Source of the DNA: Acidobacteriota bacterium
GTDB taxonomy: Bacteria; Acidobacteriota; Thermoanaerobaculia; Multivoradales; J023
Assembly (NCBI GenBank): GCA_029263395.1
Contig: JAJCXO010000026.1
Span: forward strand, 1-35,449
Direction of reading: 5' to 3'
Length of the DNA stretch: 35,449 nucleotides
The notes below the pieces were generated by a model. It had not been told where the DNA came from, searched no databases, and saw only the letters and a program-made list of their open reading frames with translations. This document shows, piece after piece, positions 21,154 through 35,449 of this stretch (its first letter is position 1; each line of letters begins with the position of its first letter). Both the position numbers and the translations under genes were made by a program.

Positions 21154-21716
21154 GCGAGTCCTCCTCAGTGCTGAGGCTCGGCGCCCGAAGCGATACAACA
21201 CTCCGGTCCGTGCCCGAGGCCGGTTGTCGAACGCGGGGGGCGCGGCACGACCGCTTTCCGGGATCGACCAATGATTGAGTGCAAACTTATTCAAGTCTAT
21301 GGCGTGGAGAGGGAAATGCCAAGCGATATGGCGTTACGAAAACTCTACGCGGCTCACCACAGTCGCGCGTAGTCCCCTGGCTTCTGCTCGGCGACGTTCT
21401 TGAGCTTCCTTGGACGCAACGATCGGTTTTTGACCCTTTCAGCAGTCAGAAACTGACCCACCAGGGAGACAAGATAATTTTCGGCCAAAGCCCTCAAACT
21501 CTTGAGCAAAGGGCGTTTGGACGAAAAATGTAAGTGGGGACAACCAGCCGAGGTGGGTCTCGTTCCGATTGTTGAAAGGGGCAAACTCTGAGTGTTGCCA
21601 ATAGCGATAGCGCATCGATGGATTACTGAATGACTACCACCGCGAGGCCGCCTGAAACCTCGGCTGATCTTTTGCACCCTACGGGGCAAGTCGTCGACCA
21701 CTCCAAACCACGGATT
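21154..21716. other. Intergenic region with transposase remnant
   Basis: Between two minus-strand genes. The only recognisable element is a transposase 3'-end remnant at 21612-21686. The rest, including two open frames of about 85-115 codons, shows no recognisable domain. Confidence 0.5.
21612..21686 (+). mobile_element. Transposase C-terminus and IS-end remnant
   Basis: The plus strand reads RIDGLLNDYHREAA and a stop, an ending seen in insertion-sequence transposases, followed by sequence close to 34740-34779 (TTTTGCACCxTACGGGG). In-frame stops lie immediately upstream, so only the 3' end survives. The IS family is not determined. Confidence 0.5.
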
Positions 21717-23363
21717 CTATGGGAGGTAAGACTTATCGGGAGCCACACGGAGACGACTCAAGGTCTCCGGCTCTCCGTACTCCCAGACCGTTCGCGTGGG
21801 GCGGCTGGACCGGTATCGAGACAGGCGGGCTCGAGCTGCCGTGGGGTCGATTCGCCCACTCCCCTCGACGGCCTGGACAGCGCCCTCTTGCCAACGCACT
21901 GCGTCGGAGAACTGGCCCAATGCGGCGTATGCCATCGCTAGGGTTTCGATCTGTTGAAAGTGGACCCGGGACCGTTGCGGGAAGCTCACGAGATCGAGCG
22001 CCCGGCGTCCGTCCCGCAGGCCTTCGACCGGGCTCGTCGCCAGAATTCTCGCGAGGAGGTGGTGGAGCGCCTTGGCCTCAGGCTGATTCACGGTGGCCGA
22101 CTCCAACTCGGCCAAAGATGACTCCCAGCGGCCTTCCCGAAGCTGGCACACGACGTGTCCAAATCTTGCATTGGCGTGTGTCGGTTCAGAATCAAGGACC
22201 CGCGCATAGTGCTGGAGAGCCGTTTCACAGTGCCCTGTGCTGCGTTCCAGGGACGCTAGACGGAATCGGGCCCATCGGAAGTCCGGGTCCAGCTGGAGGG
22301 CGCGGAGAAAGTGCGCGCGTGCTGCTTCTGGGGAGGCGGCTTCCGCGAGGACGCCGAGCTGATAGTGAATCGGCGGGTAGCCCTGTAAGCCTTCAACAGC
22401 CAGGAGGAGGTGCTCGCGCGCGGCGTCCGAATCACCCAGTCGTCGTTCGATCAGTCCGAGCAAGAAGTGGACATGCGGATCCTCACCGTCGTCCGCCAAC
22501 AGGTCGACCAACCCCTGTTTGGCTTCCTCGGACCGTCCTGCCTCGAAGAGGCGCTCTGCGGCTTTCAGTCTCGTCGTGCTCCGCTCGCGCCGTAGCTGCT
22601 CGACGTCTGCCATCCACGGATCGTCAAGAGGAAGCACAACACGATCGTCATTGCCTCGGATACGGGCGCGATCCAGGTGGTGGCGGGCAAGCTCCAGGTC
22701 TCCGGCATCCCGAGCCGCCATCGCGAGGGCGTAGTGGACCGAGGTCGCATGGGGTACCTCCTGGAGAATCGCCCGAAAGGCCTCGATCGCGCTCTGCAAA
22801 TCTCCCCGTTCTCTCGCCAGCCGTGCCAGCCCGTTTCGTGCACGGTGACACCTGGGAGCCAACTCCAGGGCGCGGTCGAAGTGACCGTTCGCTTTGTCAT
22901 GGGAGCCGAGCTCGAGCTCGACTTCTCCTAGCGCAACGAAGGCTGGAACGTAGTCCGCCGCTTCGATCACGGAGAGCAGGAGATCCCGGGCCTCTTCGAT
23001 CTCGTCGAGACGGAGGGCGATCGTCGCCTGGAGGTATCGCCAGGTGGGCTCGGTGGGCTCGAGCCGAGTGGCGTTCCGATATCCGGCCATGGCAGTGGAA
23101 AGGAACCGATGGGCGTGGAACCAATTGGCGAGATCGGCCCAGGCCCGAGCGCGGTCGGCGCGCGAAGAATCCCCCTGAATGTCGACCACCGCCAGGGTCT
23201 CCCGTCGACTTTCGTATTGGTGCCGGATCTGTGGCTCCATCGAGGCGAGCCCTCTCGGCTCCGGGATCTCTTCCAGGACCGGCTGTGGGTCGCCGCAGGC
23301 CAGGCCGAAGAGAACCAGGCTCAGGCCTAGAATCGTGGCGATCCGCAGGCCCAGGGAACTCAA
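21717..23363 (-). CDS. TPR-repeat lipoprotein
   Basis: The best start is TTG at 23363. It overlaps the upstream gene's stop as TTGA, has an AGGAG six to ten bases before it, and gives a short signal peptide with lipobox LFGLAC. The open frame continues to 23456, but that would overlap the CRTAC1 gene by about 100 bp. About nine to ten tetratricopeptide repeats fill the 548-residue protein (for example DKANGHFDRALELAPRCHRA, AARAHFLRALQLDPDFRWAR, ALQHYARVLDSEPTHANARF). TPRs mediate protein-protein contact. Translational coupling to the CRTAC1 lipoprotein suggests the two are made in similar amounts and may work together on the periplasmic or outer surface. Confidence 0.85.
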   Translation of the reverse strand: MSSLGLRIATILGLSLVLFGLACGDPQPVLEEIPEPRGLASMEPQIRHQYESRRETLAVVDIQGDSSRADRARAWADLANWFHAHRFLSTAMAGYRNATRLEPTEPTWRYLQATIALRLDEIEEARDLLLSVIEAADYVPAFVALGEVELELGSHDKANGHFDRALELAPRCHRARNGLARLARERGDLQSAIEAFRAILQEVPHATSVHYALAMAARDAGDLELARHHLDRARIRGNDDRVVLPLDDPWMADVEQLRRERSTTRLKAAERLFEAGRSEEAKQGLVDLLADDGEDPHVHFLLGLIERRLGDSDAAREHLLLAVEGLQGYPPIHYQLGVLAEAASPEAARAHFLRALQLDPDFRWARFRLASLERSTGHCETALQHYARVLDSEPTHANARFGHVVCQLREGRWESSLAELESATVNQPEAKALHHLLARILATSPVEGLRDGRRALDLVSFPQRSRVHFQQIETLAMAYAALGQFSDAVRWQEGAVQAVEGSGRIDPTAARARLSRYRSSRPTRTVWEYGEPETLSRLRVAPDKSYLP

Positions 23364-25207
23364 GGACTCTCCTGAGAACGTTCTGAGCCCTTGACGAGAG
23401 TATGGTACCGACCGACGGCTAGGTGCGCGAAGAGCTCGGTGGCCCCGTCGGGCCATTCCACCCGGACTCGGACCGCAGCCGGGGCACTTTCTAGGTCACC
23501 TAACCCGAACAGCACCCGCGAGTCGCCGGCAGAAAGGTAGCTGGCTCCGGTCCGAACCCGCCGCACCCGCGGAGGCGCCCCGTCTAGCAGCAGCTCAACG
23601 CGTGTCCCGAGCATGTCCCGCTGGCCTGCCATTCCAACGAGCCGCAGGCCGACCCAAGCTCGATCCTGACCAACGCGATTGATCAGCAGACGAGCCGGCC
23701 CTCCGGCATTGAACACCACCAGATCCGGATCGCCGTCGTTGTCGACGTCGCCGACTGCGAGACCGCGGCTCGTCTCGGCGTGAGTGAAGGAGTCTCCGGC
23801 TCGGCTCGTGACGTCCTCGAAGTCCGGCGAGCCGTCCCGGTCCCCTCCCCGATTCAGGAACAGCTGATTGGGTTGATCGTAGGGAAAGCTGTCGCCGACC
23901 GCTTCCAATTCTGGAACCGCCGCGACCGCACCGTGAACGGCCGCAAGATCGAGCCAGCCGTCATTGTCGACGTCGAGGATTACCGTACCGAAGCCGGTGT
24001 ATGGGGTGCTCTGGCGCATCCCGGCAACCCGGCTCCGATCCGAGAACATGCCCCCGCCGTCATTGAGATAGACGGTGTTGGTATCGCCCACGAGATGGGT
24101 CATGAAGAGATCTTCGTCCCCGTCGTTGTCGAGGTCCCCAACGTCTACGCCCATGCTGGCCTGTGCCTTCCCTTCGAAGTCCAGAGCGCTGCCGGTGAGA
24201 AGCCCCCAGTCCTCGAAGCCGAGGTGCTGGTCGGGTCCGGGACCTCGGTTGTGCCAGAGCTGGTTCGGCATCAGGTCGTTGGCGACGTAGAAGTCGATCC
24301 ATCCGTCGGAGTCGAAGTCGGCGGCAACGACACCGAGGCCAGACCCGCCGTCGCTCGCCAACAACCCCGCCCGGGCGGTCACGTTCACGAACGTGCCGTC
24401 TCCCAGGTTTCGGAACAAGCGATCGTGTTCGCCAGAGTACGCTTGCGGGCCGCAATAGTCGGTACGCCCTGTCGGTCCCCGACACACGCGGTGCGAGCCG
24501 ATTCGGTAGTCGACGTACGTTGTCACGAAGAGATCGAGCCAGCCGTCGCGGTCGAAGTCGAGGAAGATCGCGCTTGTCGACCAGCGGGAATCATCGACGC
24601 CGGCCATCAAGGTCCGATCTTCGAACGTCCCGTCCCCTCGGTTGCGCCAGAGCTGATTCGATCCGAAGTTCGTGACGTAGAGATCTGGCCACCCGTCGTT
24701 GTCAATGTCGCCGACCGCCACCCCCATGCCATAGCCGTTCGACGCGAGACCGCTCGCTTCCGTTGCGTCCCGCCAGGTCACCGGACTGCCCGTGGATCCA
24801 GCGGAGGGGTTCGCCTCGGAGAGGTAGAGACGATCGTGAAGAGGTCCGGCGGGCGGGACGATGGCGGCCGGCGGTAGGCTGCCATCTAGCGTAGTGCCTT
24901 GGACGGCATAGAGGTCGAGGTCGCCATCCCCATCAACGTCAACCAGTGCGCCTCCAGGGCCGCCCACCTCTGGGAAGTAGTAGCGTCCCGTCGCGCCGTT
25001 GTAATGCAGGAAATCGAGCCCAGAAGCCTCCGTCTCGTCTGTGAAGAGGAGCTGCTCCTCGCCCTGGTCTTCGGGCGCTCCTGAGATCGAGGAAGACTCA
25101 CCGCAGCCCCAGATTGATATCATCATGACCACGAGGAGCAACTTCGGGCCAGTTCGCGAAACCGAGCCCGGTTGGTGGCTCTGCTCGCGGAATGGATCTG
25201 ACTTCAT
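23360..25207 (-). CDS. CRTAC1-family FG-GAP/ASPIC-UnbV lipoprotein
   Basis: A complete 615-residue member. It starts at an ATG preceded by GGAGGG; the signal peptide carries a lipobox (SIWGC). The propeller has FG-GAP/VCBS repeats with calcium loops DVDGDGDLDLYA, DIDNDGWPDLYV, DFDRDGWLDLFV, DFDSDGWIDFYV, DLDNDGDEDLFM, DVDNDGWLDLAA and DVDNDGDPDLVV, seven in all, fitting a seven-bladed propeller. The C-terminal ASPIC/UnbV domain (about residues 520-600) shows GTRVELLLDG, LFGLGDLE and VRVEWPDGATE. Members are common in Acidobacteriota and Planctomycetota; their role is not settled and is usually guessed to be binding. It lies between the SdrD-B-repeat gene (60-bp gap) and the TPR lipoprotein (stop/start overlap). 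Confidence 0.88.
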   Translation of the reverse strand: MKSDPFREQSHQPGSVSRTGPKLLLVVMMISIWGCGESSSISGAPEDQGEEQLLFTDETEASGLDFLHYNGATGRYYFPEVGGPGGALVDVDGDGDLDLYAVQGTTLDGSLPPAAIVPPAGPLHDRLYLSEANPSAGSTGSPVTWRDATEASGLASNGYGMGVAVGDIDNDGWPDLYVTNFGSNQLWRNRGDGTFEDRTLMAGVDDSRWSTSAIFLDFDRDGWLDLFVTTYVDYRIGSHRVCRGPTGRTDYCGPQAYSGEHDRLFRNLGDGTFVNVTARAGLLASDGGSGLGVVAADFDSDGWIDFYVANDLMPNQLWHNRGPGPDQHLGFEDWGLLTGSALDFEGKAQASMGVDVGDLDNDGDEDLFMTHLVGDTNTVYLNDGGGMFSDRSRVAGMRQSTPYTGFGTVILDVDNDGWLDLAAVHGAVAAVPELEAVGDSFPYDQPNQLFLNRGGDRDGSPDFEDVTSRAGDSFTHAETSRGLAVGDVDNDGDPDLVVFNAGGPARLLINRVGQDRAWVGLRLVGMAGQRDMLGTRVELLLDGAPPRVRRVRTGASYLSAGDSRVLFGLGDLESAPAAVRVRVEWPDGATELFAHLAVGRYHTLVKGSERSQESP

Positions 25208-25267
25208 CCGGACTGCCCTCCGAAGGCCGACGAATGAAGCCTGTCGCGCGCCATACTCTCGTCGCGT

Positions 25268-27952
25268 TCAGCCGGCCGTGCGGAGGCGCCGCCGGTAGAG
25301 GAGCGCGATTCCCGCGGCGACAATGAGCGCGGCGAGGGTTGCCAGTCCGATCGGGGACTGGGTCGGGACCTCTAGCGGGCTGCAACTCGCGAACGGGATG
25401 TTGTTGTTGATGATGAAAGGGTCGCCCGGTTCGAGCTCGAAGGTCATGTAGAACGGGTTGTTTGCACACGCGGAGGAGACCAGGGCCCTAGAGGAGAGTG
25501 CCTCACCGGAGCCAAGCGCAAACGGATCCGGGAGCCCTGTCGGGTCGAAGGTCCCGAGATCGGAGCATGCCACGCTCATCGGGAAGCCGGAGGGCGGCGT
25601 CACGGAGATGGTGTATGTTCCGGGCGTGCCATCCGTAAAGAAGGTGTAGCGGCCCGAGCTGCCGTCCTCCTGCAGATCGATCGCTCCGGGGCCAGCCACT
25701 TCCACGGATCCTCCCTGGAGGATCCTGCCGGTGCTTTCGCAATACAGGTATCCAGACGGGTCGTAGTCGCTGCAGTCGGGATCTCCGTCTCCGTCGCGGT
25801 CGTTGACGCAGGATTCGTTGCAGAGGCCGTCTGCGTCGGCGTCGACGCATGTAATCTCGAAGCTGAAATCGCTGTCCAGGGAGTCCGTGGCTCCTACCTC
25901 AAGGTCGGGCGTCCGGGTCGTCGGTCCCAGGGGTTGCGTGCAGTCGACGAGATCGGCGTCCGCCGCGTCGACGGTGACGGCATAACACAGCGGGTCGCCG
26001 ACTGCGCCGACCCGAAGATCCGCGAAGGTGTACTGGCCATCGCCGACCGTTTCCGTCGTCGCGATCGACGGACCGTCGGCGACGTCGTCGCAGTCCGTGT
26101 CCTCGAAGAGCTCGAGCCCGACTCCGGCGACGCCTTCGCCGGCATCGAACGTCCCGTTGCCGGTATTCTCCAGGCCGTCACACCAGACCGTGTCTCCGAT
26201 CGATCCGAGAGGTTCTTCGAATCCAAAGTCGGCCGAGAGCACGTCGGGTACCGTCGAGGTCAGGTCCGGCGCTTGTTCCGTGGTGGCCAATGGGAGCACG
26301 CAGGCGCCCAAGTCGGTGTCTGTGTCGTCCACGCGGACGACATAGCAGGCGGGCAAGGCGGGGGCTCCGACGGTCAAGTCGGAGAAGAGGTACTGTCCGT
26401 CACCGACCGTGTCCTGGGTCGCGATGGCCGCGCCGTCGGCGGTATCGTTGCAGTCGGTGTCGGCGAACAGGCTGATACCGATCCCGGCGAGTCCTTCGCC
26501 GGGATCGAAGGTGCCGTTGCCCGATCCGAGGGCTCCGTCACACCAGACCGTGTCTCCGATCGATCCGAGAGGCTCTTCGAATCCAAAGTCGGCCGAGAGC
26601 ACGTCGGGTACCGTCGAGGTCAGGTCCGGTGCTTGTTCCGTGGTGGCCAATGGGAGCACACAGGCGCCCAAGTCGATGTCTGTGTCGTCCACGCGGACGA
26701 CATAGCAGGCGGGCAAGGCGGGGGCTCCGACGGTCAAGTCGGAGAAGAGGTACTGGCCGTCGCCCGTCGTGTCCTGGGTCGCGATGGCCGCGCCGTCGGC
26801 GGTATCGTTGCAGTCGGTGTCGGCGAACAGGCTGATACCAATCCCGGCGAGTCCCTCGCCGGGATCGAAGGTGCCGTTGCCCGATCCGAAGGCTCCGTCA
26901 CACCAGACCGTGTCGCCGATCGAGCCGAGAGGCTCGACGAAGGAGAAGTCCACGTCCAAATCCGCCGGGGAGTCGACGTTGATAGCAGGACTCTGCTGCA
27001 CAGGGGTGTCCGGGGTGGTGCAAGCGCCGAGGTCGGGATCGGAGGTGTCCACTTCCGCGACGAAACAGATCGGAGATGCAGCCGGTCCGAGCGAGAGGCC
27101 CTCGAAGAGGTATTGGCCGTCGCCCATCGTGTCCTGGGTCGCGATGGCCGCGCCGTTCGGAATCCCGTCGCATCCGATGTCGTCGTAGAGCAGGACCTCC
27201 ACTCCGGCGAGACCCTCTCCCGCATCGAAGACGCCATTCCCGGTTCCGGTGACTCCGTCGCACCACACGGTGTCGCCCACCGAACCGAAGGTCACCGTGG
27301 CCGAGTTCTCGACCCCCCACACGAAGGGCGGAGATCCCAGCGGTCCGACAAGGTTGTAGGTCATGGTTCCGCCGAAGAAGCTTCGGCCGACCCAGGAACC
27401 GAAGACGCTCTGTGTTCCAGCCGCGTTCGGCGTCTGGTTGGGATTCACGATCGGCGATCCGGTCGTGATCGAGGGCATGGTGGTCGCACGGCTGAGCATC
27501 GCGGCCGTCTGCGCTTGGATAGTGCGCGGTCCAGCGTCCGGGTAGGTGTAGGTGAACGAGCCCCGAAAGGTTCCGGGCGCGGTCTGAGGGATCTTGTCCC
27601 GCGGCACGAGGTTCCCAGTCAAGTCGGCGGTGTTCCCGTGATCGAGGGCGTTCACGGCCGGACTCAACAGCGTTGCGGTCAAGCCGGGTGGGTAGGTGGC
27701 CGCATAGAAGGTGGTGAAAATGTAATCACCGAGCAGGCCGGTCGGCATCGTGAGCGCGGGGCTGCCATACACGCCCGCGGTATTCAGGGTGACGTCGAAG
27801 GAGACTTCTCCCGTGGCTCCGTTCGCGCCGGTCACCGTCACGCGGATTCCAGACGGCCGCCCCTGGGCTTCCACCGCCCGGGGATTGACGGCGATCAGGG
27901 TCAGGACGATGGCCGTGAGAAGGCAGGGGACGGAGCGGAGGGAAAACATCAT
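25268..27952 (-). CDS. Surface protein with SdrD B-like repeats and IPTL-type C-terminal anchor
   Basis: A signal peptide (ends near AVEAQG) is followed by an N-terminal domain of about 210 residues and four tandem SdrD B-like (Cna-B-type) repeats of about 120 residues, each opening GSIGDTVWCDG with GxGNGxFDxGEGLAG; the middle two are almost identical. After a DxDxDG-rich linker (DADADGLCNESC, DRDGDGDPDC) a further beta domain leads to a C-terminal tail, VPTQSPIGLATLAALIVAAG plus basic residues. That resembles IPTL-CTERM, an anchor removed by a dedicated peptidase in exosortase-like systems. The DNA coding for the repeats is a 360-bp tandem duplication. It lies 60 bp upstream of the CRTAC1 gene, so the two may be co-transcribed. 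Confidence 0.85.
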   Translation of the reverse strand: MMFSLRSVPCLLTAIVLTLIAVNPRAVEAQGRPSGIRVTVTGANGATGEVSFDVTLNTAGVYGSPALTMPTGLLGDYIFTTFYAATYPPGLTATLLSPAVNALDHGNTADLTGNLVPRDKIPQTAPGTFRGSFTYTYPDAGPRTIQAQTAAMLSRATTMPSITTGSPIVNPNQTPNAAGTQSVFGSWVGRSFFGGTMTYNLVGPLGSPPFVWGVENSATVTFGSVGDTVWCDGVTGTGNGVFDAGEGLAGVEVLLYDDIGCDGIPNGAAIATQDTMGDGQYLFEGLSLGPAASPICFVAEVDTSDPDLGACTTPDTPVQQSPAINVDSPADLDVDFSFVEPLGSIGDTVWCDGAFGSGNGTFDPGEGLAGIGISLFADTDCNDTADGAAIATQDTTGDGQYLFSDLTVGAPALPACYVVRVDDTDIDLGACVLPLATTEQAPDLTSTVPDVLSADFGFEEPLGSIGDTVWCDGALGSGNGTFDPGEGLAGIGISLFADTDCNDTADGAAIATQDTVGDGQYLFSDLTVGAPALPACYVVRVDDTDTDLGACVLPLATTEQAPDLTSTVPDVLSADFGFEEPLGSIGDTVWCDGLENTGNGTFDAGEGVAGVGLELFEDTDCDDVADGPSIATTETVGDGQYTFADLRVGAVGDPLCYAVTVDAADADLVDCTQPLGPTTRTPDLEVGATDSLDSDFSFEITCVDADADGLCNESCVNDRDGDGDPDCSDYDPSGYLYCESTGRILQGGSVEVAGPGAIDLQEDGSSGRYTFFTDGTPGTYTISVTPPSGFPMSVACSDLGTFDPTGLPDPFALGSGEALSSRALVSSACANNPFYMTFELEPGDPFIINNNIPFASCSPLEVPTQSPIGLATLAALIVAAGIALLYRRRLRTAG
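26198..26917 (-). repeat. 360-bp tandem duplication in the SdrD B-like array
   Basis: Units at 26198-26557 and 26558-26917 are nearly identical; their 120-residue products differ at about three positions (Phe/Leu, Thr/Val, Ile/Thr). The flanking repeat units are clearly more diverged, so this is a recent duplication or gene conversion. Confidence 0.85.
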
Positions 27953-28080
27953 TTGGAGTCAAACCTTCTCTTTTGGGGCCTATGAAGCTGCTGTGCGGCT
28001 TCATGTCAGTTGGATTGTGGTGGCATGATCGAATCTTAGCAAGGCGATTCTTGCCCTGCGTCGTCTTTTGTTCTGCGTCG

Positions 28081-30885
28081 TCAAGATCCGGAGGTACCAC
28101 CGGGCGGCAGCGTCTCGAGTTCCGCACGGACTTCGGACGCCGCCGCATGTCCAGGAGCCGCCCTGAGGAAGGCGTTCCAGTGTCTTCTGGCGAGATGCGG
28201 CTTTTGGAGGGCGCCGGCATACAAGCGCCCGAGCCGCAGGTGGCTTTCTGCATAGGCGGGGACCTGGTCGACGACTTCAAGGAACAGGGCTTCGGCTGGG
28301 CCGGCTCGATCGGTCCTGGCGAGCAACACCCCGAGGTTGAACTTCGCCTGCCAATAATCCGTTGCCAGCTCTAGGCTTCGGGCGAAGGCGGCTTCGGCCG
28401 GTCCGATCCGGCCCTGTTCGTCGAGGGCGACACCCAGGTTGTTCCAGGCTTCGGGGAGGTCGGGGGCGCTCTCGATAGCACGGCGCGCATAGGTCTCAGC
28501 GGCCGCCCACTCGCCGCGATCGACCTCGATCGCGGCGAGATTGTTGGCCGCATCGGCATAGTCGGGGTGAGCCTCGGTTACCTGTCGCAGCTCGTCGATG
28601 GCCCGGGCCACTCGCCCAAGCCGGTAAAACGCAACCGCGCGGTTGCTGCGCGCGGCAGCATTGTCGGGATCATGGGAAAGAGCGGCCTCGAATTGGAGGC
28701 GGGCCTCTTCGACCCGACTGTGCTCCGCCAGCCAGCTGCCGAGCGCGACTTGCAGTTCCGGCCGCGGAGTCTCGCTCAGCCGGAGTGCCTCTTTGAGGTG
28801 CTTCTCCGCGTCGGTGCCCGCCGACCTTCGGGCGAGGATCACGCCCAGTTTGCCATGCAGATCGGCGTCGTCTGGCTGTTTTTGCAGGCCCAGGCGATAG
28901 ACGTCCTCGGCCTCTTCGATTCGTCTCGAGAGCTCGAGAACGCTCCCCAACTGGCGGTAGGCCGGCACCAGGAACGGGTCGCGGGCAATTGCCTTGCGCA
29001 AGCCAGCCTCGGCCTCAGCCCACCGTCGGGTCGGGATGTCGATCAGGCGCGCCTGCGCGACCAGCAGTCGTGGGTGGTCGGGGCTCGCCTCCAGCGCACG
29101 GGCCAGTGAGTCGCGGACTTCTTTGACCCGGCCGAGACGGGCGAGGAGACTCGCCCGGGTCGCCATCGCTTCGATCCCTCGGGGGTCGAGATCGAGTGCG
29201 GTCTCGACGAGGTCGAGAGCCTTCTGCGGCTCTTGGCGCCGAGACTCCAGTCCGGCCATGAGGAGGTAGAGGCGCGAGTATCGTGGCTCCAGGGAAAGAG
29301 CCCTCTCGAGGGTCTGTATCGCTCCGTCGACGTCTGCGGAGCCTTCCTGGGCTGTCGCGAGGTCGATCAGAGCAGCAAGGTTATTTGGGTCTTTTTGGAG
29401 GATCTTGCGGGTTTGGGTAATCGCCTGCGGAAATAGGCGGTCCTGCAGAAGGCGCCGGCTCCGCTCGAGGCCGACGTGGAGATCTACCATAGCCTTCGGA
29501 TCTGGACGATCCTCGTCGGGGGTCGTCGAGCCGGTGCCAACGGATACGTAGCCGAGGCTTCGAAGCTTCTCTATCGCTTCGTTGTCGAGCTCTAACGAAG
29601 CTTCCTTCTCTCCGCCCCCGGCCTCTTCGAGGGTCTCATCGAGCATTCTGCGAAGATCATGGGCCATGCCCTCCTTCTGGTCGTGGAGGTTCGTAAGCTC
29701 CCAGGGGTCTCGCGAGAGATCGTAGAGTTCTGGATCCGGAGCGTCGATGTACTTCCAAGCACCCCGTCGGACGACGCGAAGCTTCGCCCAGCCATAGGTG
29801 TAGAAGGGTAGGTACGTCTCCGAGTAGATCGACCGTTCCACTCCGTCGGCGCTGCCGAGGATCGGCAGCAGGCTCTGCCCGGAAAGGCCTTCAGGCACTG
29901 GCAAGTCCAGGAGGTCGAGGAGGGACGGGGCGAGATCGACCTGGCCGACCGGAGGGCGGTGGATGATGCCGGTAGGGCCCCCTCGAACCGATAGGATCCA
30001 CGGCACGTGTAGTGTCGAATCGTAGGCTAGAATTGCATGGCTCTGCTCGCCGTGCTCCCCGAGACTCTCGCCGTGATCTCCGATGACTGTGACGGCGAGG
30101 TCATTTGCTCGCCGGAGACGGGAGTGCTGGAGCAACCGACCGATCTGCGAGTCCATGTAGGCGATCTCGCCGTCGTAAAGCCTCCCAGCGTACTGGTCTC
30201 GGTACGGGGGAGGGGGGGAATAGACAGCGTGCGGGTCATAGAGGTGAACCCAGAGAAACAGCCGTTCGTCCGGGGAGATCTCGTCGAGCCATGCGTGGGC
30301 TGCGTCGACCGTGGCTTCAGCAGGACGATCCGCGACGACTCGCGGGTGACGCTCCCGGCTCGTCGAAAGATCGTCGTCGTAGGTTTCGAACCCTTGGTCC
30401 AGGCCGTAGCGCCGCTCGAGAACGGCCGCCGAGACGAACGCAGCTGTCCGGTAGCCCTCGCTGGCGAGGATCTCGGCCAGCGTGGTGAGGCTCTCCGCCG
30501 CGTGGTGGGTGCCGTTGTTCCGGACCCCGTGCATCGGAGGCGTGAGCCCGGTGAGGATGCTGGCGTGTGCCACCAGGGTGATTGGAGCCACCGCGTACGC
30601 GCGCTCGAAGAGGACTCCGCGCTCGGCCAGCGCGGCGAGATGAGGTGTGGCGACGTCCGTTGCGCCGTAAGGCTCGAGCCGGTCCGCTCGGGTCGTATCC
30701 ACGGTGACCAGAACGACGTCACGCGCGCGGCGTTCGAACGAGACGGAAGACGCCGAAGGGGTTTCCGGCGTCGAGCATGCTGAAAAGGCCATAGCAACGG
30801 CGAGGGCCATTGGAGCGAGTGAGCGGCACGATGGGACGAAGGGGCGAACCGAAGGCACGGAAGGGTGACGCATAGATTCACTCAT
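28081..30885 (-). CDS. Sulfatase-fold (alkaline phosphatase superfamily) lipoprotein fused to TPR array
   Basis: The N-terminal 480 residues are a sulfatase-like domain after a lipobox (AFSAC, Cys37). Metal and nucleophile candidates are Asp63 in VTVDTTRAD, Thr103 in APITLVAHASILTG, and Asp270/His271 in GDHGESLGEHG. In true sulfatases the nucleophile box is C/SxPSR, converted to formylglycine; here Thr takes that place and Pro, Ser and Arg are absent. This resembles phosphotransferase or phosphodiesterase relatives such as EptA and LtaS, which use Thr. The C-terminal 430 residues hold about 12 TPRs (for example AITQTRKILQKDPNNLAALI, AEAAFARSLELATDYWQAKF). It may act on a phosphorylated or sulfated surface molecule held by partner proteins. 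Starts at 30885 or 30873 are both possible. Confidence 0.85.
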   Translation of the reverse strand: MSESMRHPSVPSVRPFVPSCRSLAPMALAVAMAFSACSTPETPSASSVSFERRARDVVLVTVDTTRADRLEPYGATDVATPHLAALAERGVLFERAYAVAPITLVAHASILTGLTPPMHGVRNNGTHHAAESLTTLAEILASEGYRTAAFVSAAVLERRYGLDQGFETYDDDLSTSRERHPRVVADRPAEATVDAAHAWLDEISPDERLFLWVHLYDPHAVYSPPPPYRDQYAGRLYDGEIAYMDSQIGRLLQHSRLRRANDLAVTVIGDHGESLGEHGEQSHAILAYDSTLHVPWILSVRGGPTGIIHRPPVGQVDLAPSLLDLLDLPVPEGLSGQSLLPILGSADGVERSIYSETYLPFYTYGWAKLRVVRRGAWKYIDAPDPELYDLSRDPWELTNLHDQKEGMAHDLRRMLDETLEEAGGGEKEASLELDNEAIEKLRSLGYVSVGTGSTTPDEDRPDPKAMVDLHVGLERSRRLLQDRLFPQAITQTRKILQKDPNNLAALIDLATAQEGSADVDGAIQTLERALSLEPRYSRLYLLMAGLESRRQEPQKALDLVETALDLDPRGIEAMATRASLLARLGRVKEVRDSLARALEASPDHPRLLVAQARLIDIPTRRWAEAEAGLRKAIARDPFLVPAYRQLGSVLELSRRIEEAEDVYRLGLQKQPDDADLHGKLGVILARRSAGTDAEKHLKEALRLSETPRPELQVALGSWLAEHSRVEEARLQFEAALSHDPDNAAARSNRAVAFYRLGRVARAIDELRQVTEAHPDYADAANNLAAIEVDRGEWAAAETYARRAIESAPDLPEAWNNLGVALDEQGRIGPAEAAFARSLELATDYWQAKFNLGVLLARTDRAGPAEALFLEVVDQVPAYAESHLRLGRLYAGALQKPHLARRHWNAFLRAAPGHAAASEVRAELETLPPGGTSGS

Positions 30886-30891
30886 AGTATA
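30886..30891 (-). promoter_or_regulatory. TATACT -10-like box before the sulfatase-fold gene
   Basis: TATACT abuts the ATG at 30885 on the minus strand and lies 12 bases before the next in-frame ATG (30873). If it is the -10, translation most likely begins at 30873. The -35 match (TTGGGG at 19 bp) is weak. Confidence 0.25.
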
Positions 30892-30930
30892 GGATTCCGG
30901 CTCTGTTGTTCCCCAACCAAGGCGCCAAAC

Positions 30931-31527
30931 ATGTTGCTCCGCTCACCTTCGATCTCCGCCCGGCTCATGCCTATACTTGCAGGGCTTGGTGTCTTGGCTT
31001 TTGGACCGCTTGTGTGTCCGCTCCGGGCAGAAGAGCCAGAAGGATCTACGTCGACAGGGAGCGCGCCTGAGGCCCGGCCTGCCCCCGCAAGCATTGTCGT
31101 CCAGTGGTGGGAGCGGAGCGACATCGTCGAGGCGATCGATCTTCGTCCCGAACAGATCGAGGCTCTGAACGTTCTCTGGAGCGAGGCCCTCGAAGCCCGG
31201 AACGCAGGTCGTACCGAGCAGACTCGATTGTTCGCCGACTTCACGGCGGCGCTCCAGTCGAATGCACCCGGCGGACGCGCCGTCCTCGTCGATCGACTTG
31301 CCGAGTCGGCGGCCGCCCAGGCTCGCCTTCCGGCCGAGCTGATGGACCGAGGCATCGCGGTCCTGGATCCGGATCAACACGGTCGGGTCGCAGAGCAGTT
31401 TCCCTGGATCTTCCGACGATCTTGGATGGGACGCTCGACGGCGCGAGAACGACGACTAGAGAAGCGGGGTGGGCCTCTCCGGATCCAACCGAAGCGGATG
31501 AATACCAGAGGAGAAGAGCATGAATGA
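30931..31527 (+). CDS. Spy/CpxP-like periplasmic protein, putative
   Basis: From the ATG at 30931 the protein has a signal peptide (LMPILAGLGVLAFGPLVCPL, cleavage near RAEE) and a helical, charged mature part with WWERSDIVEAIDLRPEQIEA and later QARLPAELMDRGIAVLDPDQ. The pattern of LRPEQ/LDPDQ helices recalls the LTxxQ motif of Spy and CpxP chaperone-like proteins, though the match is loose. Its end overlaps the next gene by eight bases, so the two are likely co-transcribed. It is divergent from the sulfatase-fold gene with only 45 bp between start codons. Confidence 0.5.
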   Translation: MLLRSPSISARLMPILAGLGVLAFGPLVCPLRAEEPEGSTSTGSAPEARPAPASIVVQWWERSDIVEAIDLRPEQIEALNVLWSEALEARNAGRTEQTRLFADFTAALQSNAPGGRAVLVDRLAESAAAQARLPAELMDRGIAVLDPDQHGRVAEQFPWIFRRSWMGRSTARERRLEKRGGPLRIQPKRMNTRGEEHE

Positions 31528-31966
31528 GTCGCGCCGACGTCCGTACCGTCATTATTTCTACGGGTTCGCAATGGGAGCGATCCTGATCCTCGGAACGGCG
31601 GAGCCCGGGCAGGCTCAGGTGCCCGAGATGTCGGGAACGTGGGTTGCCGTCGAAACCTCCTGGAACGGGGAGGCATCCCGGAACGGCGAGCAGCAGCGCC
31701 ACGCCCGGGATGGGGAAGAGACCGTGATCGCGGTCGAAGGGGATTCCGTCACCGTGACCCGGACGCGACTGTCCCGCACCTATGTCGTCGACGGCCAGGA
31801 CCACCATGTCGATGGCCGGGACGTCCGTGCGTCGTGGGACGGAGGCCTCCTCGTCCTGGATACCCCCAGGGGCACCGAGACCTGGGAGTTGTCTGGCTCG
31901 GGCGAGCTGACGATCACCCGCCGCATCGGGGAGTCGGTGCAGATTCGCGTTCTTCGCCGCCGGTAG
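31520..31966 (+). CDS. Small secreted protein of unknown function
   Basis: A 148-residue protein with AGGAGAAGAG before its ATG and a signal peptide ending near GQAQV. The mature part begins MSGTWVAVETSW and is beta-rich (DSVTVTRTRLSRTY, GLLVLDTPRGTETWELSG), which suggests a small lipocalin-like barrel, but no family is recognised. The eight-base overlap with the Spy-like gene implies a two-gene operon. Confidence 0.65.
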   Translation: MNESRRRPYRHYFYGFAMGAILILGTAEPGQAQVPEMSGTWVAVETSWNGEASRNGEQQRHARDGEETVIAVEGDSVTVTRTRLSRTYVVDGQDHHVDGRDVRASWDGGLLVLDTPRGTETWELSGSGELTITRRIGESVQIRVLRRR

Positions 31967-32050
31967 GCCGAGCCCGTGGGCCTGGCGCTCGCGATCGTTT
32001 CAGCGGCGGACCGTGGCGTTGGTGAACGGCCAAGACTTGACATGACGCGC

Positions 32051-32064: not shown

Positions 32065-32874
32065 ATGAATGATCATCCGAACCTGCGACGACCTTCCGCC
32101 CGGCGTTTCGCGCCGGCTCTGCGTCCTATCCTCTTCGTCCTGTTGTGCTCCGCGCTCCATGCTCCCGCCGCCCATGCCGATGTCGAGCTCGAGGCGCGGT
32201 ACTGGGCGCCTGACCTCTTGAGCAGGGTGGGGGTGGACGGCGGGGCGTTCGATCCGGCGCTCGAATTCGACGGTCCTCTCGATCTCGGACTCGACGCGGA
32301 CCAGGACCTCGAGGCTCGGCTGTTGCTGAGCACAGGCTGGGGGTTCTTCGTCCGCGCCGCCTACCAGAACGTGAATTCGTCCGGCGCGACGAGTCTCGAC
32401 GTCGGCGTGGTGGGCCTGCCGTTCAACGTCACCGCCGATCTCGACACTCGTCTCGACTTCGAATACGGCCGGCTGGCTCTGGGCTGGCGCTACACGAACC
32501 CGGGTGACACGCTTAGCTTTGGCATCTTCGCCGAGGCCAAGGCGGTGCGCGGCGACGTCTCGGTCGCGGCGTCCGCCTTCGACATCTCCGCCGGTGTCAG
32601 CGATGACTTCGAAGCCGCAGTGCCGGCGGCCGGCGCCATACTGCGCCTGCGGCCGGGGGGCGGCAAGCTCGAGCTCTTCGCTGAGGCGTCGGTGGCCGTC
32701 GATACCGACGAAGCCGACGTCACTGATGCCGAGCTCGGCGCCCGCTACTTCCTCACCGAGACCTTCGGCGTCGGCGCCGGCTATCGCACCCTCGAGATCG
32801 ACGCCGCATTCGATTCGGTGCGGGTCAACTACGAAATCGACGGCGCCTTCGTGACGGCGGTCCTGCGCTTCTGA
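32065..32874 (+). CDS. Outer-membrane beta-barrel protein, putative
   Basis: 269 residues with a signal peptide (ends near AHADV). The mature protein alternates hydrophobic and polar residues in strand-length runs (DVELEARYWAP, LEARLLLSTGWGFFVRAAYQ, LALGWRYTN, SFGIFAEAKAVRG, ELGARYFLTETFGVGAGYR) and ends in the aromatic-terminated strand GAFVTAVLRF. A C-terminal Phe is the usual Bam-complex recognition signal. Eight to ten strands are plausible. The ligand is unknown. Confidence 0.7.
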   Translation: MNDHPNLRRPSARRFAPALRPILFVLLCSALHAPAAHADVELEARYWAPDLLSRVGVDGGAFDPALEFDGPLDLGLDADQDLEARLLLSTGWGFFVRAAYQNVNSSGATSLDVGVVGLPFNVTADLDTRLDFEYGRLALGWRYTNPGDTLSFGIFAEAKAVRGDVSVAASAFDISAGVSDDFEAAVPAAGAILRLRPGGGKLELFAEASVAVDTDEADVTDAELGARYFLTETFGVGAGYRTLEIDAAFDSVRVNYEIDGAFVTAVLRF

Positions 32875-32904: not shown

Positions 32905-33132
32905 CGCTACTAAGGCGGCTTCGCGGGCTTGAGGCAGGGTCAGTTTGCCGTATTGCCCGAGGATGTAGAAGCGGCGACGTCCACGGCTCCAGTATGAGAC
33001 GACGAAGGACTTGCGGCCGGTGGGGTAGATGCGCAGGCCGAATCCTGCCATCTCGGTGTCCCAGAGATAGCAGCTGCCCTGTCCCTCATAGACCGCTTCA
33101 TCGATGGTCCGCTTGTTGAGCCGGACCTTCAT
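32905..33132 (-). pseudogene. Tyrosine integrase, N-terminal arm-binding domain only
   Basis: The frame starts MKVRLNKRTIDE and continues with ETEMAGFG-type sequence (LWDTEMAGFGLRIYPTGRKS, FYILGQYGKLTLPQAREAA). This is the typical N-terminal DUF4102/arm-DNA-binding region of phage and island integrases. Recognisable homology ends near 32910. The frame then runs through the antisense of the outer-membrane protein gene, so the core-binding and catalytic (R...HxxR...Y) domains are absent. Its upstream region is the repeat at 33172-33474. Confidence 0.75.
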
Positions 33133-33171
33133 GGTGGCGCGCCCCAGGGCCGGGTCTTGGAGGTGGGCTCC

Positions 33172-33474
33172 AACCGGTTACTTAGGTCTTGAGTAACCCA
33201 CAAGTAACCAACTGGGGGCGAAAACCAGGGTGTTGCAGCGTGAACCATGCACTCACCCTAAGCTGGTAAGTGCTGGATTGTCGCCCACTTAGCGTGGTCT
33301 GGCGTATTCTAGCGTGAAGCGGAGTAAAGGGCGTTGGTTCCGGGACTATGAGCTAAGCGGGCCGGAAACTGTATCTGTAAACGATTGATTTGAAATAGTT
33401 TATGTCTTTTTCCGTGCTGGTCTGGCTCTCTTGAGTAACCATATGGAAGAGTGGTGTGGAGTAGTCTGGCGTAC
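33172..33474. repeat. Integrase-upstream/att-like repeat, copy A
   Basis: About 300 bp directly upstream of the truncated integrase, repeated at 34786-35112 in the same orientation. It contains AACCGGTTAC, TTGAGTAACC (33189-33198, 33431-33440) and CAAGTAACCA (33201-33210), plus a 28-bp block (33329-33356, TTCCGGGACTATGAGCTAA) identical in copy B. Short repeats flanking a core are the usual organisation of integrase arm and attachment sites. Confidence 0.65.
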
Positions 33475-33533
33475 TGAGTCTTCGGAGGCTCGGATTCTGG
33501 ATGCGTTCTCGTCAGTCCTGGTACTATTCTGAG

Positions 33534-33819
33534 GTGGATATTCGTTTTTATCTCGACCCAGAGACAGGTGAGCCACACATCTACGAGCACGACGTGAGCG
33601 AGGATGAGGTTGAGGAAGTGCTACGATATCCGGGCGACGACTTGCCGGGCCGCCGGGATTCTCGTATCGCCTTGGGGGCAAACAGAGTCCGGTCGCTACT
33701 TGCAAGTGGTCTATGTCCAGGATCCTGACCGGCATAGCCTCTTCGTCGTGACTGCATATGATCTACGAGGCAAAGCCCTGACGGCATACCGTCGACGCAG
33801 AAAGCGAAAGAGAACATGA
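33534..33819 (+). pseudogene. BrnT/DUF4258-like small toxin, frameshifted
   Basis: From GTG at 33534 the frame reads DIRFYLDPETGEPHIYEHDV, then SEDEVEEVL, and breaks after RRDSRIALG. Removing one G from the five-G tract at 33674-33678 continues it as QTESGRYLQVVYVQDPDRHS, LFVVTAYDLRGKALTAY and a basic tail. The roughly 95-residue product resembles BrnT/DUF4258-type toxins (HxVSxxEVEEVL, then a strand with VVYV, then AYxxxxKALTAYRRRRKRK). Its stop overlaps the next gene's start as ATGA, the usual toxin-antitoxin layout. TACTAT ends six bases before the GTG. The break may be decay or error. Confidence 0.55.
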
Positions 33820-34031
33820 AAGCCACCAAAGAGTTTCCTTCGGGCTGGAACGAGCAACGGGTTCAGGACGTGCTGAACTACTACGAGAGCCAAACCGACG
33901 AAGACGCCGCTGCTGAGCATAAGGCAGCGTTGTCGAGTTCGGATCATACGCTCATGGAGGTCCCAGCCGACTTGGTGCCAATTTTCCGGCAGCTGATCGC
34001 CGAACATCAGAGAGAGCAATCCAGCCACTGA
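33816..34031 (+). CDS. Probable antitoxin of the small-toxin pair
   Basis: A 71-residue acidic protein (KEFPSGWNEQRVQDVLNYYE, then SQTDEDAAAE, later LMEVPADLVPIFRQLIAEHQ) whose ATG overlaps the toxin-like gene's stop as ATGA. Small proteins of this kind, with W(N/D)E-RV-VL-YES and MEVP-LVP motifs, commonly follow DUF4258/BrnT-like genes. No DNA-binding domain is obvious. The toxin upstream is frameshifted, so the antitoxin may be orphaned. Confidence 0.6.
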   Translation: MKATKEFPSGWNEQRVQDVLNYYESQTDEDAAAEHKAALSSSDHTLMEVPADLVPIFRQLIAEHQREQSSH

Positions 34032-34178
34032 TTTGGCGCAGGGTTGCTGCCAAGTTGTTCGTCATCGATCACAGATATCCGTCCTAGATAGGGCCAGGGC
34101 GATGTCGTCTAGCGCGTTCTGACATAGATCGAAGTGCTTTTCGAGGAATGGTGGGAGTAGGTTGGTAACAATCCTCGA

Positions 34179-34577
34179 ATGAGTCCGCCCGTTCGGACAA
34201 GAAGAGACTACACGCTCTGGCAAGCGGACGAGGCGAGGAAAGAGATGTCCTTTGAGGTGACAGACGAAGAGCAAGCACTTTTGGACCGCTACTTGGACTT
34301 CTACGAAGCGCTGGCCAGCGGTGAACGCTCGCCTGACACCGAAGCGCAAGAGCATTTCGTCAGGGTAACGCAAGGCAAGGCCGGCGCTGAGACTTCACAT
34401 GAGTTCGCTTATGCCAAATTCATGCGTCAACAAGCCCAGGTCAGAGAGGCACGGCGCCTAGAAATGGAAGGGCGCCGGGAGTCCGAGCCGCCACCTGAGT
34501 GGTTTAGCCGTGAGGATCACGGAAAGTTGCAAAAGCGTCAGTTTAGAGACTGGATGAGCCGGAGGCGCGACAGCTGA
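34179..34577 (+). CDS. Hypothetical protein, possibly DUF413/MaoP-like
   Basis: A 132-residue, highly charged, probably helical protein. The middle (TDEEQALLDRYLDFYEALAS, GERSPDTEAQEHFVRVTQGK, ETSHEFAYAKFM) resembles the DUF413/MaoP pattern of L-x-xYG-xLxxLxxGxxxPxTxxExxFV-VxxGxxxAxTxxExxWxKY, but the match is from memory. No signal peptide. It lies in the accessory island downstream of the antitoxin, on the same strand, with about 150 bp between. Confidence 0.55.
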   Translation: MSPPVRTRRDYTLWQADEARKEMSFEVTDEEQALLDRYLDFYEALASGERSPDTEAQEHFVRVTQGKAGAETSHEFAYAKFMRQQAQVREARRLEMEGRRESEPPPEWFSREDHGKLQKRQFRDWMSRRRDS

Positions 34578-34700
34578 CGGAGATCGTCATCCTCACTCTC
34601 CTCATTCGAGGATAGCACGATCACCTGAAGTTGCTGAAGCGACTGCCGAGTCGGGCACAACCGCCGTCGAATCCGGGCGCCGAGGTTCAGCGGCGCAGAC

Positions 34701-34779
34701 GCATCGGTGGGCTACTGAACTACTACCCATCGGGAGGCCGCATGAGAGTTCGGCCGAGTTTTTGCACCATACGGGGAGG
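34701..34779 (+). mobile_element. Transposase C-terminus and IS-end remnant
   Basis: The plus strand reads VQRRRRIGGLLNYY and then shifts frame at ACTACCCATCGGGAGGCC; the intact relative at 21612 ends GLLNDYHREAA and a stop. GAGTTTTTGCACCATACGGGG follows, as at 21612-21686. Only the 3' end of a transposase gene and the adjacent IS end remain. Confidence 0.5.
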
Positions 34780-34785
34780 GCCTCT

Positions 34786-35112
34786 AACCGGTTACTTGGG
34801 CCTTGAGTAACGCACAAGTAACGGATTGGGGGAGAAAAGCGGCGTGTTGCAGCGTGGACCATGCACCCACCCTAAGGCGGCAAGTGCTTGATGATCAACC
34901 AGTTAGCGGCAGCTGGGGTGAACTGGGGTGAACTGGATCGAAGTGGGGAAAGGGGGCGTTGGTTCCGGGACTATGAGCTAAACGGATCAAACGCTGGCTT
35001 TGTAAGCTATTGATTATTAATAGTTTATAGCTGATGGCGTGCGAGCCTGGTTGAGTTGAGCAACCCTTGAGCAACCATGTGGGAGAGTGAAGTGGAATAG
35101 GCTGGGGTGAAC
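34786..35112. repeat. Integrase-upstream/att-like repeat, copy B
   Basis: A diverged direct repeat of 33172-33474, about 1.62 kb further on: AACCGGTTAC at 34786, TTGAGTAACG at 34803, CAAGTAACGG at 34815, the identical 28-bp block at 34954-34981 and TTGAGCAACC twice (35056-35065, 35067-35076). Three GGGGTGAAC repeats (34914, 34924, 35104 area) replace the TCTGGCGTA motifs of copy A. No integrase gene is attached; the transposase remnant lies where it would be. Confidence 0.65.
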
Positions 35113-35137: not shown

Positions 35138-35449
35138 TCAAACGTCCCTTGGATCGATGGCGTGAATGCCGACTCCGGCGTAGCGTTGGAAGTCGCGAAC
35201 GTTGAATGTGAGGATCTCTGTGATGTTGTGCGCAAGCATGATGGCAGCCAGTCTTGCGTCGTGAACTTGGACGCCCGATACCTTGAATCGGACGACGAGC
35301 TCTCGCCAGCGATCGTAGAAATCGACTGTATCTCCAAGCCGCGGGAATCCACGCTCAAGAGCACCAACAAGACGACCCGCCTCCTCAGGCGTGTGTCCTA
35401 AGCCATTCTTGTCCTGAGGACGAGTGGCGACATTCCAGGCTTCGATGAG
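35138..35449 (-). CDS. VapC-like PIN-domain toxin (5' end outside window)
   Basis: The final 103 codons of a PIN-domain ribonuclease, entered at LIEAWNVATRPQDKNGLG and ending GIHAIDPRDV before the stop at 35138. A central segment reads EEAGRLVGALERGFPRLGDT, followed by VHDARLAAIMLAHNITEILT, which carries acidic residues typical of the magnesium site in the HDAR/LAAxMxxH region. NVRDFQRY near the end is characteristic of the family. The first catalytic acid and start codon are beyond the window. The gene shares about 90 near-identical bases with the truncated copy at 18790-19011. No antitoxin is visible here, and copy B of the att-like repeat lies just downstream. Confidence 0.85.
   Translation of the reverse strand, partial: LIEAWNVATRPQDKNGLGHTPEEAGRLVGALERGFPRLGDTVDFYDRWRELVVRFKVSGVQVHDARLAAIMLAHNITEILTFNVRDFQRYAGVGIHAIDPRDV

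Follow-up and report, generated by a model that had tools for sequence, protein, structure and literature searches.

Paired repeats at the right end of the window

The window, the whole 35,449-nucleotide stretch analysed here, is contig C26 of a 10.7-Mb, 291-contig genome in which contigs C27 (locus L007) and C67 (locus L006) also figure below. Near its right end lie two direct repeats of ~320 bp each, A (about 33165-33474) and B (about 34779-35112), that align in two ungapped blocks: 33165-33323 with 34779-34937 (159 nt, 78% identity, start spacing 1614) and 33329-33440 with 34954-35065 (112 nt, 74% identity, start spacing 1625). The longest exact match between them is a 28-bp block, GGGCGTTGGTTCCGGGACTATGAGCTAA, identical at 33329-33356 and 34954-34981. 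A first-pass annotation of this DNA had described tandem repeats sharing an identical 28-bp block and each holding several short word-type sites, and both descriptions were confirmed. The words are TTGAGYAAC, of which the window has five, all inside A and B, where 0.22 would be expected and none of 100 shuffles gave five. GC content drops from 0.66 to 0.556 between the 500-base segments starting at 32500 and 33000. Rfam returned no match in the window at gathering scores and a tRNA scan of the window found none.

Left of A, on the minus strand, is an integrase fragment (32911..33132) corresponding to residues 1-74, the arm-type DNA-binding region (PF13356, E 7e-11), with 84% identity to the corresponding residues of the full integrase at locus L023. 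The integrase fragment reported beside A is real, then, as an N-terminal arm-binding domain without the catalytic domain. A is followed on the plus strand by two overlapping ORFs in different frames (33501..33819) that represent a possible, weak toxin gene; ORF 33501-33728 has no family match and ORF 33604-33819 is DUF4258-like at E 0.022, below the cut-off. The possible partner is a 71-aa ORF (33816..34031, plus strand) with no family above the cut-off, which leaves the toxin-antitoxin-like pair proposed after A a weak case. Further right on the plus strand are a 132-aa DUF413 gene (34179..34577; PF04219, E 6.5e-8) and an insertion sequence (IS) end remnant (34655..34777), 90% identical over 123 nt to an IS of L007, that abuts the P arm of B, in the place where an integrase would be expected to start. 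The gene after B is VapC-like, as first annotated: the C-terminal part of a PIN gene on the minus strand (35138..35449; PF01850, E 8e-5, with a score equal to the 23.6-bit cut-off). The next contig carries its N-terminal end and, where an antitoxin would be expected, another ORF (L007:1-273 and 282-545).

The repeats have the anatomy of lambda-type attachment sites

A DNA search of the window's own genome located five places with the repeat: A, B, two on C67 and one at the end of C27. One of the C67 copies runs from P arm to core and directly into tRNA-Gln(UUG), with an integrase fragment alongside the P arm. The core, GGTTCCGGGACTA, comprises 13 bases within the 28-bp block and is the reverse complement of the 3' end of this tRNA. 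The repeats are lambda-type attachment sites of a virus-type integrase, consisting of a P arm (beside the integrase gene), a core, an IHF-type site and a P' arm; they are not promoters. We divided the sites using an alignment of all copies and counted positions from the core. Lambda attP is arranged as P arm sites, core, IHF H' site and P' arm sites, the same order as here, whereas the arm-site words, their spacing and the target are peculiar to the present integrase family.

In junction A, all on the plus strand, the P arm (33133..33335) carries arm-type words at 33189-33197 and 33201-33208, the core is at 33336..33348 and the P' arm (33349..33474) has one arm-type word at 33431-33439. In junction B, also on the plus strand, the P arm (34779..34960) has words at 34791-34798 (minus strand), 34803-34811 and 34815-34822, the core is at 34961..34973 and the P' arm (34974..35112) has words at 35056-35064 and 35067-35075. 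Across copies, the P arm has the words TTGAGYAAC and CAAGYAAC (GAAGCAAC in L026), placed at -147/-135 in A, L023, L024, L025 and L026; the pair is displaced together in B (-158/-146) and in the C67 copy at the tRNA (-142/-130), and genome G004 has TGAGCAAAC at -156/-145. The two words are 12 bases apart in seven of the eight measurable P arms. B, the C67 tRNA copy, L023, L024 and L025 have a third word, inverted and another 12 bases outward; L026 has a different third word at -163, and A and G004 have no exact third word. On the other side of the core, a P' word is found at +95 in all five junctions and at +106 or +107 in four; A has the +95 word only and L026 has both +95 and +107.

The IHF consensus is WATCAANNNNTTR. 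It is matched at +42 to +54 from the core in the P' arms of A (33378..33390, minus strand), B (35003..35015, minus strand), the C67 end and L024, and with one mismatch in L026. Only five exact matches occur in 113,864 bases (eight stretches, with 141 bases counted twice), four of which are these junctions, and for each P' arm 5-18 of 2000 shuffled versions held a match. IHF-consensus words are also present in L037 (one) and L041 (two), loci without such attachment sites.

Ten P-arm places are known: four lead to full integrases, four to integrase remnants and one to an IS remnant, and one ends at a contig end. P-core sites abut tRNA-Gln in four cases, one in each of four genomes; ARAGORN called the tRNA in L006, L023 and L025, and the L027 contig is cut inside tRNA-Gln. 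Sites that have a P' arm as well number five, in three genomes, the P arm of the C67-end site being cut by the contig end.

Full-length integrases occupy the same tRNA gene in related genomes

The relatives named here are metagenome genomes of Acidobacteriota and Thermoanaerobaculia. Repeat A was found in 4 of 59 genomes searched, its own included. In the three others a P-core site lies against tRNA-Gln, with four full integrases among them, and two also have a tandem junction. The full integrases stand against the tRNA in all three relatives and in one tandem junction; the window's array has fragments only. The first-pass annotation had named a repeat unique to this locus, or a duplication lacking any integrase link elsewhere, as results that would speak against its reading. 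Neither was obtained, as the repeat recurs beside the same integrase family in the three other genomes with different genes adjoining it each time.

G001, of the same genus, has tRNA-Gln, P arm and a full 401-aa integrase together. Its tRNA neighborhood is that of C67, with two adjoining genes 79% and 91% identical (RNase E/G-like and dehydrogenase-like by inspection), and on a second G001 contig a tandem junction is accompanied by an integrase remnant. In L023 the full integrase matches Phage_integrase (E 2e-25) and Arm-DNA-bind_3 (E 1e-14). In G002, tRNA-Gln lies with a full integrase on one contig, and a different contig carries a further full integrase, after which comes the tandem junction; the two proteins are 75% identical to each other, and no join was found between their contigs. 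The G004 contig ends inside tRNA-Gln and has a full integrase. The tRNA-Gln of G006, which contains the core, has no arm word in 19 kb of sequence and represents a vacant site; by inspection it sits among other genes.

A pattern scan of the named genome collection gave seven loci, five of them from G001, G002 and G004 and two being distant Nocardiopsis matches (27-28%). Class-wide, 11 of 148 genomes contained an integrase at E <= 1e-105, with five in the present integrase family. Thirteen loci of distant integrases (L031, L032, L034-L037, L039, L041, L085-L087, L089 and L090; L038, L043 and L088 fall outside this check) contained no core at up to two mismatches, and each had at most one isolated arm-like word (L031, L037, L039, L087, L089). 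Other tRNAs lie near two of them, tRNA-Lys at L089 and tRNA-Gly at L090. Viral integrases were 47% identical at best, and a tRNA scan of L092, one of 23 viral integrase loci, found none. One pattern match in the viral collection, L091, lies by inspection inside an amidase-type gene without a core and was discarded as a chance match.

A probable head-to-tail array beside tRNA-Gln

The end of the window and the start of C27 overlap exactly over 141 bases, and the C26-C27 join is firm. The end of C27 and the end of C67 overlap exactly over 26 bases inside the repeat, and C27 probably joins C67 on the basis of these 26 bases. The resulting order would be integrase fragment, A, unit 1, B, unit 2, C, unit 3, tRNA-Gln. 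Each unit has a core site on either side (for the last two, via the predicted C27-C67 join). Measured core to core, units 1, 2 and 3 are 1625, 3899 and 3426 bases long, two of these lengths passing through that join. Three compact units (1.6, 3.9 and 3.4 kb) and one longer one thus appear to lie head to tail beside the tRNA.

What remains of the integrase is residues 1-74 to the left of A, residues 1-65 in unit 2 and, in unit 3, residues 1 to ~86, the piece stopping there as an IS end begins; unit 1 has no integrase piece and has the IS end against the P arm instead. A tblastn search of the window, L006 and L007 found no catalytic integrase domain in units A-B, B-C or C-tRNA, and no close full-length integrase was found in the window's genome. 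Elsewhere in it the best full integrase, on C179, shows 52% identity, and its 4.2-kb locus lacks both the core and arm words. Catalytic halves occur on C290 (58%; located at the edge of its contig, and with a single arm word in its locus) and C228 (52%), so a related integrase may be present elsewhere in the cell.

Neither the window nor the rest of the genome yielded the far end of the array, where core-P' would meet the chromosome. We searched for it with a core-P' model in seven genomes, scoring the best 150 of 458 first-look candidates; among these, strong scores (E <= 4e-25) were obtained only for the five known junctions, and the next match was a P'-like stretch without core on contig C43 (E 2e-4). 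Two proteins of the left flank, a candidate stretch of ancestral chromosome, were also used as queries. A barrel protein had one 40% match, in G006, and a sulfatase had a 91% match on G002 contig C10 and several weaker ones, including a 54% match on the contig bearing tRNA-Gln, 23 kb from the tRNA.

Several contigs break in or near the attachment repeats, C27 (L007:3386-3455) and C67 (L006:13416-13687) inside them and C26 0.3 kb past B; such arrays may therefore be under-counted in short-read genomes.

Genes adjoining the P' arms

Cargo was viewed on the P' side of the junctions. Beside A is the DUF4258-like ORF, and beside B the VapC-like PIN gene has, in the position of an antitoxin, an 87-aa ORF that matches no family. 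Junction C is followed by a 223-aa gene without identification and then by DUF3368 and UPF0175 genes, the DUF3368 protein matching PDC-S70, a PADLOC candidate defense family. L024 has Unstab_antitox and ParE. In L026 the P' arm is followed by two small ORFs that match no family and by an RHS-repeat gene; a type I restriction gene lies ~8 kb off, with a GmrSD-type gene beyond it. The proposal that each integration event brings a toxin-antitoxin module accordingly holds for three of the five junctions, where a toxin-antitoxin pair or PIN gene adjoins P'; it applies loosely to a fourth, the RHS/restriction cluster with its small ORFs, and weakly to the fifth. Five junctions are too few for a firm claim of toxin-antitoxin enrichment, and the whole genome has 26 PIN matches including the gene beside B. 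Toxin-antitoxin genes are reported to slow the loss of SXT (PMC2654960) and of a composite island (PMC8978831), and they may similarly stabilize the present islands. In G002, the RHS-repeat gene and the two small ORFs beside the P' arm (L026:9971-17275) are a possible polymorphic toxin with immunity genes.

Probable successive arrival of islands at one site

Each repeat very probably marks where two integrative islands meet, both having entered one and the same tRNA-Gln(UUG) gene. Successive integration at the same kind of site, as first proposed, is supported by the identity of the core with the tRNA 3' end. We infer the recombination steps as follows. A phage-type tyrosine integrase, with arm-binding and catalytic domains, would recombine the att core GGTTCCGGGACTA with the identical tRNA 3' end, and the tRNA would stay whole because the island supplies the same 13 bases. 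A later island would enter the same core, so that the P' arm of one island and the P arm of the next come to flank a single core (P-core-P'). The integrase genes would then decay to roughly their first 65-86 codons or vanish, partly via an insertion sequence. With their integrases truncated or lost, the units would be decayed, CIME-like islands that retain attachment sites and cargo, the latter partly toxin-antitoxin genes.

A direct repeat pair 1.6 kb apart might suggest a plain segmental duplication, in which one attachment region was copied locally and the copies then diverged, and local copying or conversion does occur, as the P arms of C27, the C67 end and the C67 tRNA copy are 98-100% identical. 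The divergence of the arms indicates otherwise. The P' arms of A, B, the C67 end and L024 are 63-68% identical in all six pairings (48-51% to L026); A and B (P 75%, P' 66%) are no closer to each other than to sister-species copies (P' 64-68% to L024), and the P arm of A is nearer to L023 (81%) than to B (75%), while the C67 end reaches 80% to A on a shorter alignment. For B the nearest P arm is that of C27 (86%, also over a shorter stretch). The 13-bp core is invariant while the arms drift, the cargo between copies is unrelated, and the same sites lie at tRNA-Gln in other genomes. We rejected segmental duplication, which we consider very improbable, on this pattern. That the genome's own P' arms differ among themselves as much as they do from those of the sister species points instead to islands that arrived separately. 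The units have also exchanged pieces by homologous recombination: the P arms of C27 and C67 are 98-100% identical yet their integrase starts are only 86% identical (14% different), and comparison of the two contigs revealed 60-base patches of 93-100% identity alternating with patches of 77-88%. Some copies may be products of such recombination between units.

Whether the units can still move is a separate question, and movement in trans is possible. Integrase-less units might excise as small att-bearing circles and be re-inserted, integron-like, by a full-length integrase. The 1.6-3.9 kb size of the units between attachment sites (two lengths measured through the predicted join), the full integrases of the present family in relatives and, by inspection, a DUF3368 gene that two species share almost unchanged in their arrays are consistent with this, but the window's genome yielded no close full-length integrase (52% for the best full one), and the IS remnants and cut integrases resemble decay; we regard such trans-mobilization as unlikely. 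Slightly less likely still is the specific form in which the short units are live integrase-less toxin-antitoxin cassettes, excised as circles and dealt into tRNA-Gln arrays by the integrase of a resident island. If true, this would be a tyrosine-integrase counterpart of the integron array in Thermoanaerobaculia. IntI is not known to have an arm-binding domain, whereas the related full integrase here has one (PF13356) and its sites have arm words at fixed spacing. A distinct issue is the ancestry of the stacked units, and here descent from phage satellites of the P4/PICI kind, rather than from conjugation-mobilized islands, falls a little short of an even chance. P4 carries primase/helicase. 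Elements with full integrases have primase/helicase genes (L025, L027) and, near int, a regulator of CI type (L025) or excisionase type (L023), and the G002 cargo includes restriction and RHS genes; against this, no capsid-hijack or packaging gene was identified in these elements, which are incomplete, none being seen end to end.

Comparison with known arrays

The suggestion that this might be a cassette-stacking element of a new type did not stand, as both tandem accretion and integrase-less CIMEs have been described (PMC5704250, PMC3146451). Among ICESt1-related elements of streptococci, ICEs or IMEs and CIMEs accrete in tandem at shared attachment sites; decayed elements without an integrase retain their sites and later elements enter beside them at the 3' end of a tRNA or other gene (PMC5704250). 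In contrast to those CIMEs, the present units are very short (1.6-3.9 kb) and belong to Acidobacteriota. The ssrA islands of Dehalococcoides, 16 with and 15 without an integration module, likewise form a tandem series at a single RNA gene, with copies of that gene's 3' end delimiting each island, but involve a serine recombinase, a 20-bp tmRNA repeat and reductive-dehalogenase cargo (PMC3146451) rather than a tyrosine integrase, tRNA-Gln and partly toxin-antitoxin cargo. P4-like satellites with defense hotspots also combine an integrase with variable restriction or toxin-antitoxin-like cargo (PMC9122126); psu and capsid genes were not recognized here, where only the P' side of the junctions was viewed. 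Islander lists 3919 islands with 125 tandems of two or more and four of three or more, under a rule that each tandem member needs its own integrase (PMC4383910). Among the papers returned by a full-text search on Acidobacteriota tRNA islands with integrases, none concerned such an array, judging by title and the start of the abstract. What is less usual here is the shortness of the units together with the good preservation of the attachment sites between them.

What looked like an odd pair of repeats can now be read as a history of islands arriving repeatedly at a single tRNA gene, with the attachment sites resolved to the base, in a phylum that has been little studied. The conserved geometry of the sites provides a means of finding such arrays in fragmented metagenome genomes, and with toxin-antitoxin genes beside several P' arms, their holding of integrase-less islands becomes testable.

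Other observations

Window positions 21749-32013 form a 10-kb block (sulfatase/TPR-like and other genes) with 87-88% DNA identity to contig C10 of G002 (L083:5880-15786). Two core proteins are only 67-70% identical between these genomes, and the difference suggests horizontal transfer or mixed bins. Just left of the block is an IS remnant (21611-21686); the block in G002 has the C-terminal remnant of an integrase 0.9 kb to its left.

The C43 stretch (C43:69189-69307, within L135:9000-16001 of G000) is P'-arm-like and has TTGAGCAAAC and GAGCAAAC words without the tRNA-Gln core. It adjoins a SEFIR/TIR gene and an OLD-type ATPase/UvrD-helicase pair, which we take to be Gabija-like, and perhaps represents a sister integrase family with another target and defense cargo. 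Finally, G001 has a dispersed repeat of ~225 bp that is 90-96% identical at seven examined places (L121, L124, L126, L129, L131, L133 and L134) and occurs at further ones; it bears a weak likeness to the P' model and is perhaps a MITE.
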